This document shows, in pieces, positions 40,036 to 44,418 of a stretch of 64,000 bases of DNA (position 1 is the first letter of the stretch; every line of letters begins with the position of its first letter). Location of the stretch: assembly GCA_944323925.1 (NCBI GenBank), contig CALUUI010000002.1, positions 62,001-126,000 of the forward strand. The letters run 5' to 3'. The stretch comes from Candidatus Gastranaerophilales bacterium (GTDB taxonomy: Bacteria > Cyanobacteriota > Vampirovibrionia > Gastranaerophilales > Gastranaerophilaceae). A program made the translations under genes and the position numbers. Below the pieces are notes generated by a model, which was given only the letters and a program-made list of their open reading frames with translations, was not told the DNA's origin and did not search any database.

Positions 40036-40899
40036 TTAAGAAATGTTACGATGCTTTTTTAAGACTAAAGTAATAGTCGTAATTACAAAGAAAAGAATAT
40101 AACCTAAAGCGCAGGATTTACCTGCATTGAAGAATTCAAATCCTTCTTTATAAATACTGTATACAATAACATCAGTAGCTCCGTTGGGTCCGCCTGATGT
40201 CATAATGTAAATTAAATCAAATACTTGAAAAGAAGATATTATAGTTGATAATCCAACAAAAACAATAATCGGTAATAATGCAGGGATAATAACATTTGCT
40301 AATATTTTAAAATTTCCGGCGCCATCAATTTTGGCTGCTTCAATTGTCGAATTATTAAGATTTGTAAAGCCTGCAAGGTATAAAATAGTGTTATATCCAA
40401 GCAATTTCCATACTGATACAAAAATTATAATTGGCATGGCAAGATTTTCGTCATATAACCATTTGTAATTAAGGTTAAATAAGTTATTTATAAGTCCGGA
40501 TGTAGGGTCAAATATCCAGCACCATACAGTTCCAATTACTATCATGGGGGTTATGTATGGGATAAAACAAATTACTTTGAATTCCTCGCTAAACTTGAAT
40601 TTAAGATTAATCAAATAAGCAAGAAATAGCGGTAATGATATTCCAAATAATGTAACACAGGTTACATAAATTAGAGTGTTAATGTATATTTTGAGGTATT
40701 CAGAATTAGTAAGTACTTCAATATAATTTTTAACTCCGACAAAAACAGGTGGATTTAGAAAATCCCATTCAAAAAAACTGATGCCAAAAGATATAAAAAT
40801 CGGAATGATGATAAATATAAAAGTACCTATTAGTGCAGGTAAAACAAATAAAAAAAATTCTCTTTTCTTATAAGTAGATGGCTTTAAGTCATAATTCAT
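40036..40899 (-). CDS. Sugar-type ABC transporter permease (MalF/UgpA-like), orphan
   Basis: A 287-residue membrane subunit of a carbohydrate or glycerol-phosphate importer. About six membrane helices are visible, and the EAA loop EAAKIDGAGNFKILANVIIP (about 187-206) contacts the ATPase. No second permease, binding protein or ATPase gene is adjacent, so its partners must be encoded elsewhere. Substrate unknown. The gene looks intact. Confidence 0.9.
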   Translation of the reverse strand: MNYDLKPSTYKKREFFLFVLPALIGTFIFIIIPIFISFGISFFEWDFLNPPVFVGVKNYIEVLTNSEYLKIYINTLIYVTCVTLFGISLPLFLAYLINLKFKFSEEFKVICFIPYITPMIVIGTVWCWIFDPTSGLINNLFNLNYKWLYDENLAMPIIIFVSVWKLLGYNTILYLAGFTNLNNSTIEAAKIDGAGNFKILANVIIPALLPIIVFVGLSTIISSFQVFDLIYIMTSGGPNGATDVIVYSIYKEGFEFFNAGKSCALGYILFFVITTITLVLKKHRNIS

Positions 40900-40942
40900 G
40901 GTTGTAATTATAGCATGAATTTATATTCTTAATTTATATAAA

Positions 40943-40977
40943 TAAAAAAAAAGACCTTGGAATAAAAATCAAGGTCT
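40943..40977 (-). terminator. Terminator-like hairpin upstream of the ABC permease
   Basis: AGACCTTG (40952-40959) pairs with CAAGGTCT (40970-40977), with an A tract on the left that reads as T run on the minus strand. It would stop minus-strand transcription entering from the repeat region at 41 kb. No minus-strand gene is visible there. Confidence 0.65.
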
Positions 40978-41082
40978 GTCCGTTTAAATAAGAAGAGAGA
41001 GCTTTATGTTTTTTTTAAAACTCATAAAATAAATTTTTTGCTCAAAATTATTTTAAAAAGTCAAAAAATTTACAAAAATTTA

Positions 41083-41136
41083 CATATCCCCTCCCCAACT
41101 TGGGGAGGGTTAGGGAGGGGAGTGGTCTTTTGGAGG
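41083..41136 (+). repeat. GC-rich hairpin/G-quadruplex repeat, A copy 1
   Basis: CATATCCC then CCCTCCCCAA (41089-41098) paired with TTGGGGAGGG (41100-41109), followed by TTAGGGAGGGGAGTGG. The run GGGG-A-GGG-TTA-GGG-A-GGGG at 41102-41120 is a canonical G-quadruplex motif overlapping the hairpin's right arm. The tail GTCTTTTGG is shared with copy 3. Very unlike the AT-rich surroundings. Confidence 0.9.
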
Positions 41137-41173
41137 AAAAGAAGTAGAGTTTTAATACGGGGGCAAGTTGATT

Positions 41174-41226
41174 CCCTTGCGGGATACTCCCCATCCCAGC
41201 CTTCCCCTATCAGGGGAAGGAGATAG
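41174..41226 (-). repeat. GC-rich repeat, B copy 1 (inverted relative)
   Basis: CCCTTGCGGG, TACTCCCCATCC, then the 8-bp hairpin CCTTCCCC/GGGGAAGG around TATCA (41200-41220). Its reverse complement resembles repeat A (hairpin followed by GGGATGGGGAGTA), so B is an A-family member in the opposite direction. Confidence 0.8.
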
Positions 41227-41238
41227 CTTAACATTGTT

Positions 41239-41275
41239 CCCTCCCCAACTTGGGGAGGGTTAGGGAGGGGAGTGG
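41239..41275 (+). repeat. GC-rich hairpin/G-quadruplex repeat, A copy 2
   Basis: Identical to copy 1 over the whole hairpin plus G-quadruplex core (41239-41275), with the quadruplex motif at 41252-41270. Its right end runs into the DUF559 promoter: TGATAATAT at 41280-41288 is an extended -10 box. Confidence 0.9.
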
Positions 41276-41294
41276 TTTGTGATAATATAAGAAT

Positions 41295-41633
41295 ATGAAC
41301 TCCACTGAAAAAGCAAGAAATCTTAGAAAAAATATGACAAAACAAGAACGAAGATTATGGCAATTTCTAAGAAAGAAAAATATTAATAATCTTAAATTTA
41401 GACGTCAATATCCAATAGGGAAGTATATAGTAGACTTTATATGCAACGAAAAGAAATTAATTATAGAAATTGATGGTGGACAACATAATGAAGCCCAAAA
41501 CATATCTTATGATCAAGAACGAACAGAATATCTTGAAAGTAAAGGCTATACAATAATACGATTTTGGAATAATGATATTGATAACAATATAGAAGGTGTT
41601 TATCAAGAGATTTTAAAATATTTAATTTATTGA
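41295..41633 (+). CDS. DUF559 protein, VSR/PD-(D/E)xK-like endonuclease, inside a repeat cluster
   Basis: A 112-residue protein of the DUF559 family, related to very-short-patch-repair endonucleases. RKNMTKQERRLWQFLR and LKFRRQYPIGKYIVDFIC lead to the catalytic set D47, E58-I-D60-G-G-Q-H64 (LIIEIDGGQH), then GYTIIRFWNNDI near the end. A perfect extended -10 (TGATAATAT) lies 7 bases before the ATG, with no ribosome site, so the mRNA is probably leaderless. GC-rich hairpin repeats flank it on both sides. Cutting activity and target are unknown. Confidence 0.9.
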   Translation: MNSTEKARNLRKNMTKQERRLWQFLRKKNINNLKFRRQYPIGKYIVDFICNEKKLIIEIDGGQHNEAQNISYDQERTEYLESKGYTIIRFWNNDIDNNIEGVYQEILKYLIY

Positions 41634-41638
41634 ATTTA

Positions 41639-41698
41639 CCCTTACGGGGTACTCCCCATCCAAATATTTACCTCCCTTCTCCGAGTTGGGGAAGGAGC
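41639..41698 (-). repeat. GC-rich repeat, B copy 2
   Basis: CCCTTACGGGG, TACTCCCCATCC (12 bases identical to B copy 1), then CCTTCTCC/GGGGAAGG hairpin around GAGTT (41675-41695, one G-U pair). Begins 6 bases after the DUF559 stop codon. Confidence 0.8.
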
Positions 41699-41709
41699 AT
41701 TATCTCTTG

Positions 41710-41760
41710 CATATCCCTCCCCGGCTTTGGGAGGGTTAGGGAGGGGAGTGGTCTTTTGGG
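41710..41760 (+). repeat. GC-rich hairpin/G-quadruplex repeat, A copy 3
   Basis: CATATCCC, CCCTCCC/GGGAGGG hairpin with changed loop (CGGCTTT), then the same TTAGGGAGGGGAGTGGTCTT tail. The quadruplex motif GGG-A-GGG-TTA-GGG-A-GGGG at 41729-41746 is kept although the hairpin loop has changed. With copy 1 it brackets the whole element. Confidence 0.9.
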
Positions 41761-41773
41761 AAGTAAGGTTTTA

Positions 41774-41802
41774 GATGCGGTAAATCTTAGATTTACCGCA
41801 TC
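41774..41802. repeat. Perfect 12-bp hairpin at the right edge of the repeat element
   Basis: GATGCGGTAAAT (41774-41785) pairs with ATTTACCGCATC (41791-41802) around CTTAG. No T run follows, so it is not a simple terminator; it may be a boundary of the element. Confidence 0.75.
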
Positions 41803-41928
41803 CTACTTGTTTACAAATAATAAAAAACAGAAAATTAAATATAAATAATATATTTCCCCTTTTACCCCCTTGAAGTTTTGAGTTATTTTTTGTAACATTA
41901 TATTAGCTGTTTAATAGAGGAGAAACAA

Positions 41929-44418
41929 ATGTTCGAACGTTTTACCGAAAAAGCAATAAAAGTAATAATGCTTGCTCAAGAAGAAGCAAGACGGTTAGGT
42001 CATAATTTTGTAGGTACAGAGCAAGTATTGCTGGGTTTAATAGGAGAAGGTACCGGTATAGCTGCCAAGACTCTAAAATCAATGGGAGTTAATCTTAAAG
42101 ATGCCAGAATAGAAGTCGAAAAAATTATAGGTAGAGGTTCTGGTTTTGTAGCAGTAGAGATACCGTTTACTCCTCGAGCAAAACGAGTATTAGAACTATC
42201 ATGGGATGAAGCAAGACAACTCGGCCATAATTATATAGGTACAGAACATTTGCTTCTTGGCTTGATAAGAGAGGGTGAAGGTGTTGCAGCAAGAGTTTTA
42301 GAAAATCTTGGTGTTGACTTAAATAAAATAAGAAGCAATGTAGTTAAAATGCTTGGTGATACAAAACCTCAAACAACCGCAGCCGGAGGAATTTCATCAT
42401 CTTCATCACAAGCGTCAAAAGTTAAAACTCCAAGTTTAGACGAATATGGTACTGATTTAACATTAGCAGCAGCAGAAATGCGTTTGGATCCTGTTGTAGG
42501 GCGTGAAAAAGAAATTGAACGTGTTATTCAAATTCTTGCAAGACGTACAAAGAATAATCCGGTTCTTCTTGGTGAACCTGGGGTTGGTAAAACAGCTGTT
42601 GCCGAAGGTCTTGCTATCAGAATTGTTAATGCAGAAGTTCCTGATATTTTAGACGGGAAGAAAATTATCCAATTAGATATGGGATTATTAATTGCAGGTA
42701 CAAAATATAGAGGCGAATTTGAAGAAAGACTCAAAAAGATTATGGATGAAATTCGTCAAGCAGGAAATATTATTCTTGTAATTGATGAAATGCATACATT
42801 AATTGGTGCAGGTGCAGCAGAAGGTGCTATTGATGCTGCAAACATCTTAAAACCTGCACTATCAAGAGGGGAAATTCAGGTTATTGGTGCAACTACATCT
42901 GATGAATATAGAAAATACATCGAAAAAGATTCTGCACTTGAAAGAAGATTCCAACCGGTTATTATTGATGAGCCGTCAATTGATGAAACAATTGAGATTA
43001 TTAGAGGTTTAAAATTCAAGTATGAAGAACACCACAACTTGATAATTTCTGATGACGCAATTGTTGCGGCTGCTAAATTATCAAGTAAATATATTAATGA
43101 CAGATTTTTACCTGATAAAGCAATTGACGTTCTTGATGAAGCAAGCTCAAAGGTTAGATTAAAAGTAAGTACTCTTTCTCCGGAAGGCAAAGAGCTTGAT
43201 AAAGAACTAAGAAAAATTATTAAAGAAAAAGAAGAAGCAATCAGAAATCAAGAATTTGAATTGGCATCATCATTAAGAGATGATGAAGCAAATATGAAGG
43301 ATCGTATCAGAGAGGCTTCTGAAGCATGGAAACGTGATAATGATACGAATAAGCCTACAGTAACCGAAGAAGATGTTGCTGAGGTTATAGCAACCATGAC
43401 CGGTGTTCCTGTTACAAAACTTACAGAAGGTGAAACAGAAAGATTGCTTAAACTGGAAGATACATTACATGCTCGTGTTATTGGTCAAAGTGATGCCGTT
43501 ACAGCTATCTCTAAAGCAATAAGACGTGCAAGAGTAGGTTTAAAAAGTCCTAACAGACCAATCGGAAGTTTTATCTTCTCAGGTCCTACAGGTGTTGGTA
43601 AAACTGAACTTGCTAAAGCTCTTGCAGAAGCGGTGTTTGGTTCTGAAGATAATATGATAAGAGTTGATATGTCAGAGTTTATGGAAAAACATTCAACTGC
43701 TAAACTTATCGGTTCACCTCCGGGGTATGTTGGTTATGATGATGGCGGGCATTTATCCGAAATCGTCAGAAAGAAACCTTATTCAGTTATTCTTTTTGAT
43801 GAAATTGAAAAGGCTCACCCGGATGTATTTAATATTATGTTGCAAATCCTTGATGACGGTCGTTTGACTGATGCTAAGGGTAGACATATCAATTTCAAAA
43901 ATACAATTATAATCATGACTTCTAACGTTGGTGCAAGTATGATTGCTACTCAAGGAAAGTTAGGGTTTACTACAGGCGAAGATGCTAAAAAAGATAAGTA
44001 TGAAAAACTTAAAGAAACAGTTAATGAAGAACTTAAAAAGGCATTTAGACCTGAATTCCTTAACCGTATTGATGATATAATCGTATTCGCTCACTTGAGT
44101 AAGGAAGAAATCAGACAAATTGTTGATTTGATGATGAAAGATTTATTTAAACGTTTAAGCGAAAGAGAATTGTCTGTTGAAGTAACTGACGAAGTAAAAG
44201 ATTTCTTAGCAAAAGACGGTTATTCTGAAGCATATGGTGCAAGACCTTTAAGAAGACTTATTCAAAGAAAAATCGAAGATCCGCTTGCAGAAGAAATTCT
44301 GACAAGTGCTTATCAACCGGGCGATACGATTGTTATGAAACTTGTTGATGAAAAGATTGTGTTTGAGAAAAAACAAAAAGATGAAGCTCAGCAAGAAGAA
44401 ACTCAAGCGGCTCAATAA
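41929..44418 (+). CDS. clpC: ClpC-type AAA+ chaperone / protease ATPase
   Basis: Hexameric unfoldase feeding ClpP. Two Clp N-terminal repeats (about 1-145), first AAA+ with [13 protein letters not shown] near 216 and [12 protein letters not shown], a middle region with UVR-like [20 protein letters not shown], and second AAA+ with [14 protein letters not shown] near 553, and [13 protein letters not shown]. 829 residues. AGAGGAG precedes the ATG, and TTGAGT with TATTAG 17 bases on may be the promoter. No McsA/McsB or CtsR genes are adjacent, as in cyanobacteria. A terminator follows. Confidence 0.95.

Follow-up and report, generated by a model that had tools for sequence, protein, structure and literature searches.

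The question raised by this locus is whether a small DUF559 nuclease gene and the hairpin repeats on both sides of it form a mobile or homing element. The window (the whole 64-kb stretch of DNA analyzed) belongs to a Gastranaerophilales-like genome of 1.94 Mb in 42 contigs, a lineage assigned from the named loci closest to it. Its 0.7-kb block, with the order A> <B A> [DUF559] <B A>, lies between two genes that we take, from reading their sequences, to encode an ABC-transporter permease (40036–40899, minus strand) and clpC (from 41929, plus strand). We consider it probable that the DUF559 gene, together with the inverted repeats that flank it, constitutes one mobile genetic element that spreads in a homing-like manner.

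Organization of the repeat-nuclease block

The order of elements given in the initial annotation is correct, and the repeats between 41089 and 41746 bracket one intact DUF559 gene (Table 1). The three A copies and two B copies were all located; the A starts previously placed at 41083 and 41710 include a common CATATCCC flank, and the third A copy differs in its loop and keeps all of its G runs. B1 belongs to a second type of triplex motif and is inverted, and B2 is degenerate and was not caught by the strict scan. The description of the block as GC-rich holds for the repeats (0.49–0.51) but fails for the gene, whose value of 0.257 lies below the window mean of 0.322.

Table 1. Coordinates of the features of the block in the window
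Feature	Coordinates	Strand	Basis
Block missing in congener G003 (empty site)	41085–41814		Flank alignment to L137
Repeat A1, putative type-A intrastrand-triplex motif	41089–41120	+	DNA hairpin fold, -10 kcal/mol
Repeat B1, inverted; triplex core 41188–41220 (TCCCCATCCCAGCCTTCCCCTATCAGGGGAAGG)	41174–41222	-	Fold z -4.5
Repeat A2, directly 5' of the DUF559 gene	41239–41270	+	Triplex-motif scan
Candidate promoter -10 region TGATAATAT	41280–41294	+	Sequence comparison; function inferred
DUF559 nuclease (VSR-like PD-(D/E)XK), 112 aa	41295–41633	+	PF04480 profile match
Repeat B2, inverted, degenerate hairpin	41639–41697	-	Sequence
Repeat A3, changed loop, G runs retained	41715–41746	+	Triplex-motif scan, fold

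At E ≤ 0.01, the genome contains 14 repeat units, grouped in a few clusters, and four of them (A1, B1, A2, and A3) are in this block. The gene-free A1–B1 interval and the A2–gene–B2 unit share the motifs at their two ends, GAGTGGT and CCCTTRCGGGRTACTCCCCATCC, and the former looks like a deletion version of the latter. The -10 region TGATAATAT lies only a few nucleotides 5' of the ATG, with a similar TGATAAAATAAAAATATG in most of L024–L029; this closeness suggests that the DUF559 mRNA may be leaderless.

Two further repeat features were observed. A 29-nt palindrome, GATGCGGTAAATCTTAGATTTACCGCATC (41774–41802), adjoins the right side of the block and represents a second repeat family dispersed in the genome (G000 C2:1072, C8:71307, C27:5336, and C18:21309). 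Repeat clusters elsewhere in the genome (L016, L017, L018, and L019), some of them at contig ends, lie inside a longer mosaic repeat (CAAGGTTCTTTCTTTTTGTTGCGATGC..., ACAATCACTTAGCGAAAC...).

The A repeat fits an intrastrand-triplex motif

The A repeat reads CCCTCCCC-AACTT-GGGGAGGG-TTA-GGGAGGGG, that is, a Y-arm, an R-arm, TTA, and a mirrored R third strand. A canonical quadruplex had been emphasized for these copies in the initial annotation. The G runs are real, and canonical quadruplex motifs occur in the 64-kb window only within the three A copies, but the emphasis was unsupported as stated, since the mirrored arm is a better fit to a triplex motif, and the quadruplex was set aside as the key feature. 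In GGGGAGGG-TTA-GGGAGGGG, the last arm is the exact mirror of the first (all 8 nt match in A1 and A2), and therefore an intrastrand triplex is the more specific description. As judged from its letters, the A repeat is a putative BoxC/PIT/TM-type intrastrand-triplex motif, to which it is a perfect match.

When the third strand was not required for detection, the own-mirror score was 6.80/8, compared with 5.81 for the arms of other units, and the second loop was 3 nt long in 137 of 166 units. Comparison of mirrored with unmirrored arms, counted by distinct arm, gave only p 0.06, which leaves selection for a triplex unproven. At two loci (L046 and L047), 46-bp tandem arrays of the B-type repeat were found 3' of DUF559.

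The DUF559 product is a VSR-like nuclease

The gene product matches PF04480 (Pfam) over its full length (E = 1.2e-43), and the gene is the only DUF559 gene in the 1.94-Mb genome. Residues D47, E58, D60, H64, D73, and R89 are intact in the window protein, and the catalytic D47, E58, D60, and H64 are invariant in 167/167 proteins, a set that includes 45 labelled as part of longer ORFs or as adjacent to a site motif. The fold was assigned by homology to the solved endonuclease-like protein 3hrl (E 8e-28). A weaker match (E 2e-4) was obtained with the mobile-intron protein 3r3p, which we take to be I-Bth0305I of the VSR-like (EDxHD) homing endonuclease family, and profiles for homing endonucleases also matched (PADLOC HEase, 7e-7; PHROG homing endonuclease, 2e-6). 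The nuclease domain is related to those of homing endonucleases, and its active site is intact. ORFs of ~1000 to 1450 aa in G004, G007, G013, and many relatives match DUF559 weakly and probably form a separate family.

Repeats accompany DUF559 genes across bacteria

A scan of relatives gave 80 DUF559 loci, and loci added later brought the survey to 164 distinct genes from Gastranaerophilales, cyanobacteria, Clostridia, Proteobacteria, and Deinococcus. The 80 loci yielded 78 GC-rich hairpins in the 250 nt before the gene and 73 in the 250 nt after it, compared with at most 15 in any other 250-nt bin; the corresponding numbers of triplex motifs were 62 and 64, compared with at most 10. Clustering of the repeats around DUF559 genes was confirmed on the larger set, where a triplex motif lies within 300 nt of 120/164 genes, against few or none per 250-nt bin over most of the surroundings: 70/92 in Gastranaerophilales and near loci, 17/21 in cyanobacteria, 3/3 in E. 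coli, 19/37 in other phyla, and 11/11 in a plasmid collection (Proteobacteria, cyanobacteria, and Deinococcus). The strict motif is absent within this distance at 44/164 genes, and several of these misses, for example in Clostridia, have a hairpin whose second loop is longer. In 38/70 loci, the upstream flank was more similar to the inverted downstream flank than in the best of 20 shuffles, and a similarity score of 18, reached by 25 near-flank pairs, was reached by 0/62 far-flank pairs. The position profiles and shuffles rule out a chance association.

The association also holds at the level of whole genomes. When 99 relatives were searched with a covariance model of the repeat, repeats were present in 21/23 genomes with a strong DUF559 (mean 18.7), compared with 17/76 without (mean 2.8; Fisher p 3e-9). 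With one genome per genus, the counts were 15/15 and 6/25 (p 1e-6), and p remained ≤ 0.003 after five units were removed per gene copy; little weight should be placed on the exact values of p, because the model was trained on repeats from DUF559 loci and the per-genus test controls relatedness only partly. Many repeats without a strong DUF559 were found in G034, G051, G007, and G004. The orientation of the repeats to the gene varies by lineage (> gene < in the window, < gene > in PriA). In E. coli, a triplex motif lies less than 300 nt downstream of the DUF559 gene ycjD.

Occupied and empty intergenic sites

Of the checks suggested in the initial annotation, the clustering described above and the comparison for empty sites both came out positive: empty sites exist at the window locus and, as described below, in PriA and IspE. 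In congener G003 (L137), the flanks align with window positions 40933–41084 at 95.4% and 41815–42000 at 94.2%, and a 49-bp AT-rich stretch stands where the window has the 730-bp block. A strong DUF559 was found in 0/6 congeners, and no target-site duplication was readable at the window locus.

The nine nearest DUF559 relatives compared (68–88% aa) have no syntenic neighbor in common with the window copy. Together with the window copy they occupy nine different neighborhoods, L026 and L029 being at a common site, and these neighborhoods require a route to new sites beyond what ordinary homing supplies. In two Deinococcus species, the unit is at different junctions of one hpa gene cluster, with long inverted ends in one of them. 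In E. coli (L180 and L182–L184, sapF–fabI region), the ycjD gene is present between sapF and fabI in 3365/5426 genomes; the ycjD-minus genomes examined have a TetR-linked efflux operon upstream of fabI. Because this operon is at the site, the ycjD-minus junction is not clean, and E. coli was dropped as an empty-site system.

In-frame insertion within conserved proteins

Thirty-six of 161 distinct DUF559 genes lie in frame inside stop-to-stop ORFs of at least 250 aa. The hosts, named from recognizable motifs, include PriA, IspE, HydF, PrmA, and a HydE-like C-terminus. The unit in PriA fills the loop before the Walker A motif: the interrupted protein (L262) reads FELTGEQRAVYEGIKSKID-PSPQPSPARGEG...DUF559...PSPLAGEGRVRGS-KTILLHGVTASGKTEVY, the uninterrupted protein (L241) reads FELSPDQQKVYEGIKNKAEGNKTILLHGVTASGKTEVY, and the ends of the insert are an inverted triplex-motif pair, CCCTCACCCCAACCCTCTCCCGCAAGGGGAGAGGG and CCCTCTCCCCTTGCGGGAGAGGGCAGGGTGAGGG. 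Within one genus, repeat-DUF559-repeat is present in PriA of G049, G118, and G205, and PriA is uninterrupted in G107, G112, G149, G178, G187, and G218. Across genera, IspE has the insert in G168, G208, G164, G043, G040, and G270, and has none in G192, G149, and G205. The PriA insert of ~145–165 aa consists of repeat, DUF559, and repeat, leaving no room for a HINT splicing domain.

The same PriA loop has in-frame low-complexity inserts with neither DUF559 nor repeats in G012 and G121 (L257 and L258), which are possibly decayed units. In cyanobacteria (L213 and L221), DUF559 units are in frame in large ORFs that also contain an adenine-methylase-like motif.

Lateral transfer into the same site

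Two pairs of PriA inserts are far more alike than the genes that contain them. The insert dS is 0.109 for G049/G205, compared with 0.79 and 1.13 for the flanking codons, and 0.147 for G040/G208, compared with 0.73 and 2.5; dN is 0.02–0.05 in both pairs, and Fisher tests on approximate synonymous counts gave p below 1e-15. Therefore, the insert moved laterally into the same PriA site. A slow synonymous rate was rejected as the reason for the low values, since other pairs show no such drop and have DUF559 pS of 0.57–0.95; in G049/G118, the insert diverged more than the PriA flanks.

On a tree of the 167 proteins (FastTree only, from a short protein), site labels required 18 changes, compared with 44.5 when shuffled. 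A branch with support 98 separates the nine PriA copies from all other proteins, and the labels HydF, HydE, and IspE changed one, two, and four times, respectively. Lineages thus keep to a site, and inserts cross species into the same site, as in PriA. Occupied alleles, empty alleles, and lateral spread into one site are all found in the PriA series, and this same-site transfer backs the homing half of the original suggestion of a mobile or homing element.

Proposed mechanism and alternative explanations

The gene and the triplex-type repeats travel together and are present or absent at otherwise conserved sites. This co-travel and presence/absence, with the same-site transfer, indicate that the unit is mobile and homing-like. 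We infer that the nuclease drives the movement, and its likely cut target is an unoccupied one: the VSR-like enzyme would break an empty allele or a gene-free repeat pair, and repair from an occupied copy would then insert the element, as with a homing endonuclease. The repeats would mark the ends of the element and perhaps fold them. Gene-free A/B pairs (BoxC/PIT/TM) would be non-autonomous derivatives of the element, much like REPINs in relation to RAYTs, and cutting of such pairs followed by repeat-homology repair could produce the arrays of the window and the dispersed pairs. The DUF559 unit is likely the owner of the BoxC/PIT repeat family. Several observations weigh against this reading: the different neighborhoods of the window copy and its nearest relatives, the lineage-dependent orientation of the repeats, the repeat-rich genomes that lack a strong DUF559, the genes without a strict motif, and the lack of a readable target-site duplication at the window locus. 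Whether such units form a distinct and very widespread class of mobile element, with a VSR-like nuclease between triplex-forming inverted repeats, placed intergenically or in frame in essential proteins, homing, and shedding the BoxC/PIT/TM repeats of E. coli, cyanobacteria, and many other bacteria, we judge to be evenly balanced.

The nuclease could instead act on the repeats themselves, recognizing and cutting them in folded form, e.g., on single-stranded DNA at the fork, and thereby mobilizing repeat pairs and its own unit in a REP/RAYT-like manner; the cognate empty allele would then not be the target. Gene-free dispersed inverted repeat pairs do exist, the third strand fits its own arm better than those of other units, and the E. 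coli repeats are also A+B inverted pairs (PMC4666352). However, the covalent chemistry used by Y1 transposases is not available to PD-(D/E)XK nucleases, and the clades that keep to one site and the transfer between species into a single PriA position look like target recognition, so we regard this explanation as unlikely. The comparison with REP/RAYT systems made in the initial annotation remains useful as an analogy, but there is no tyrosine transposase here, the gene being DUF559.

A lower probability is given to the repeats being moved in trans by another factor, with DUF559 as cargo caught between them. Repeat-rich genomes without a strong DUF559 do occur, and DUF559 has no known transposition chemistry; against this, DUF559 is the partner in every lineage examined, with an invariant active site. 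At 23 repeat loci without DUF559, the recurrent families among 57 neighboring ORFs were a prepilin-like family and short ORFs, and no recombinase-like family or other repeat-moving gene was recognized among them. It is very improbable that DUF559 is an ordinary host gene for Vsr-type mismatch repair, with the repeats as unrelated clutter or terminators. The window gene, next to the presumed ABC permease and clpC, is not linked to a cytosine methyltransferase, which is a weak argument, Caulobacter VsrA also being unlinked. That DUF559 protein acts in a manner interpreted as Vsr repair (PMC12907096), and ycjD is common in E. coli, yet the patchy presence, the empty sites, and the laterally transferred inserts speak against a host function, which is largely refuted by in-frame insertions with repeats at both ends. 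Homing-like spread of the gene with its repeats is the reading that we retain.

Relation to known elements

The BoxC/PIT/TM repeats described by Holder et al. (2015, PMC4666352) occur in over 260 genomes as well as in E. coli. E. coli K-12 has 23 of them, including five inverted A+B pairs, and triplex formation in vitro and local genome instability were shown for the E. coli motif; no transposase- or integrase-like neighbor and no mobility gene were reported (PMC4666352). The repeats described here have the same pyrimidine arm, loop, purine arm, 3-nt second loop (TTA in type A), and mirrored purine third strand, as well as the inverted A+B pairs. The known repeats were described as gene-free, whereas those here are tied to a DUF559 gene and also occur in frame inside proteins. 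REPIN/RAYT systems (Bertels and Rainey 2011, PMC3116915) likewise have a palindrome-flanked gene and gene-free palindrome pairs dispersed in the genome. They differ in that the enzyme here is a PD-(D/E)XK nuclease and not a Y1 (HUH) tyrosine transposase, that the relatives have up to 8 matches per genome, and that the third-strand tag is unlike GTAG/CGTC.

Rickettsia palindromic elements (PMC10969869) are also palindromic DNA in frame in unrelated conserved genes, but they are ~150 bp long with only a short peptide ORF, whereas the units here carry an intact nuclease gene. A related nuclease domain, site-faithful lineages, and same-site lateral transfer are shared with the VSR-like (EDxHD) homing endonucleases such as I-Bth0305I. 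In contrast to these, the units described here have no intron or intein, have their own inverted triplex repeats, and lie in coding frame without a splicing domain.

An earlier description of a DUF559-repeat unit was not found in the searchable literature, and in titles, abstracts, and combined-term searches, publications naming DUF559 showed no link to repeats; priority cannot be claimed because most subscription papers and bioRxiv preprints were outside the search. Since the BoxC/PIT/TM repeats became known in the 1990s, their origin has not been explained, and their surroundings show unusual rearrangement (PMC4666352). With a nuclease gene resident in the unit, that origin and the instability of the sites can be tested directly. 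DUF559, a large "domain of unknown function" family that includes E. coli ycjD, becomes a probable mobile-element enzyme, and one that inserts in frame into PriA and IspE without splicing.

A phage-labelled gut contig (MT835749.1, L275) contains a DUF559 gene with a Clostridia-type repeat upstream and is a possible vehicle.
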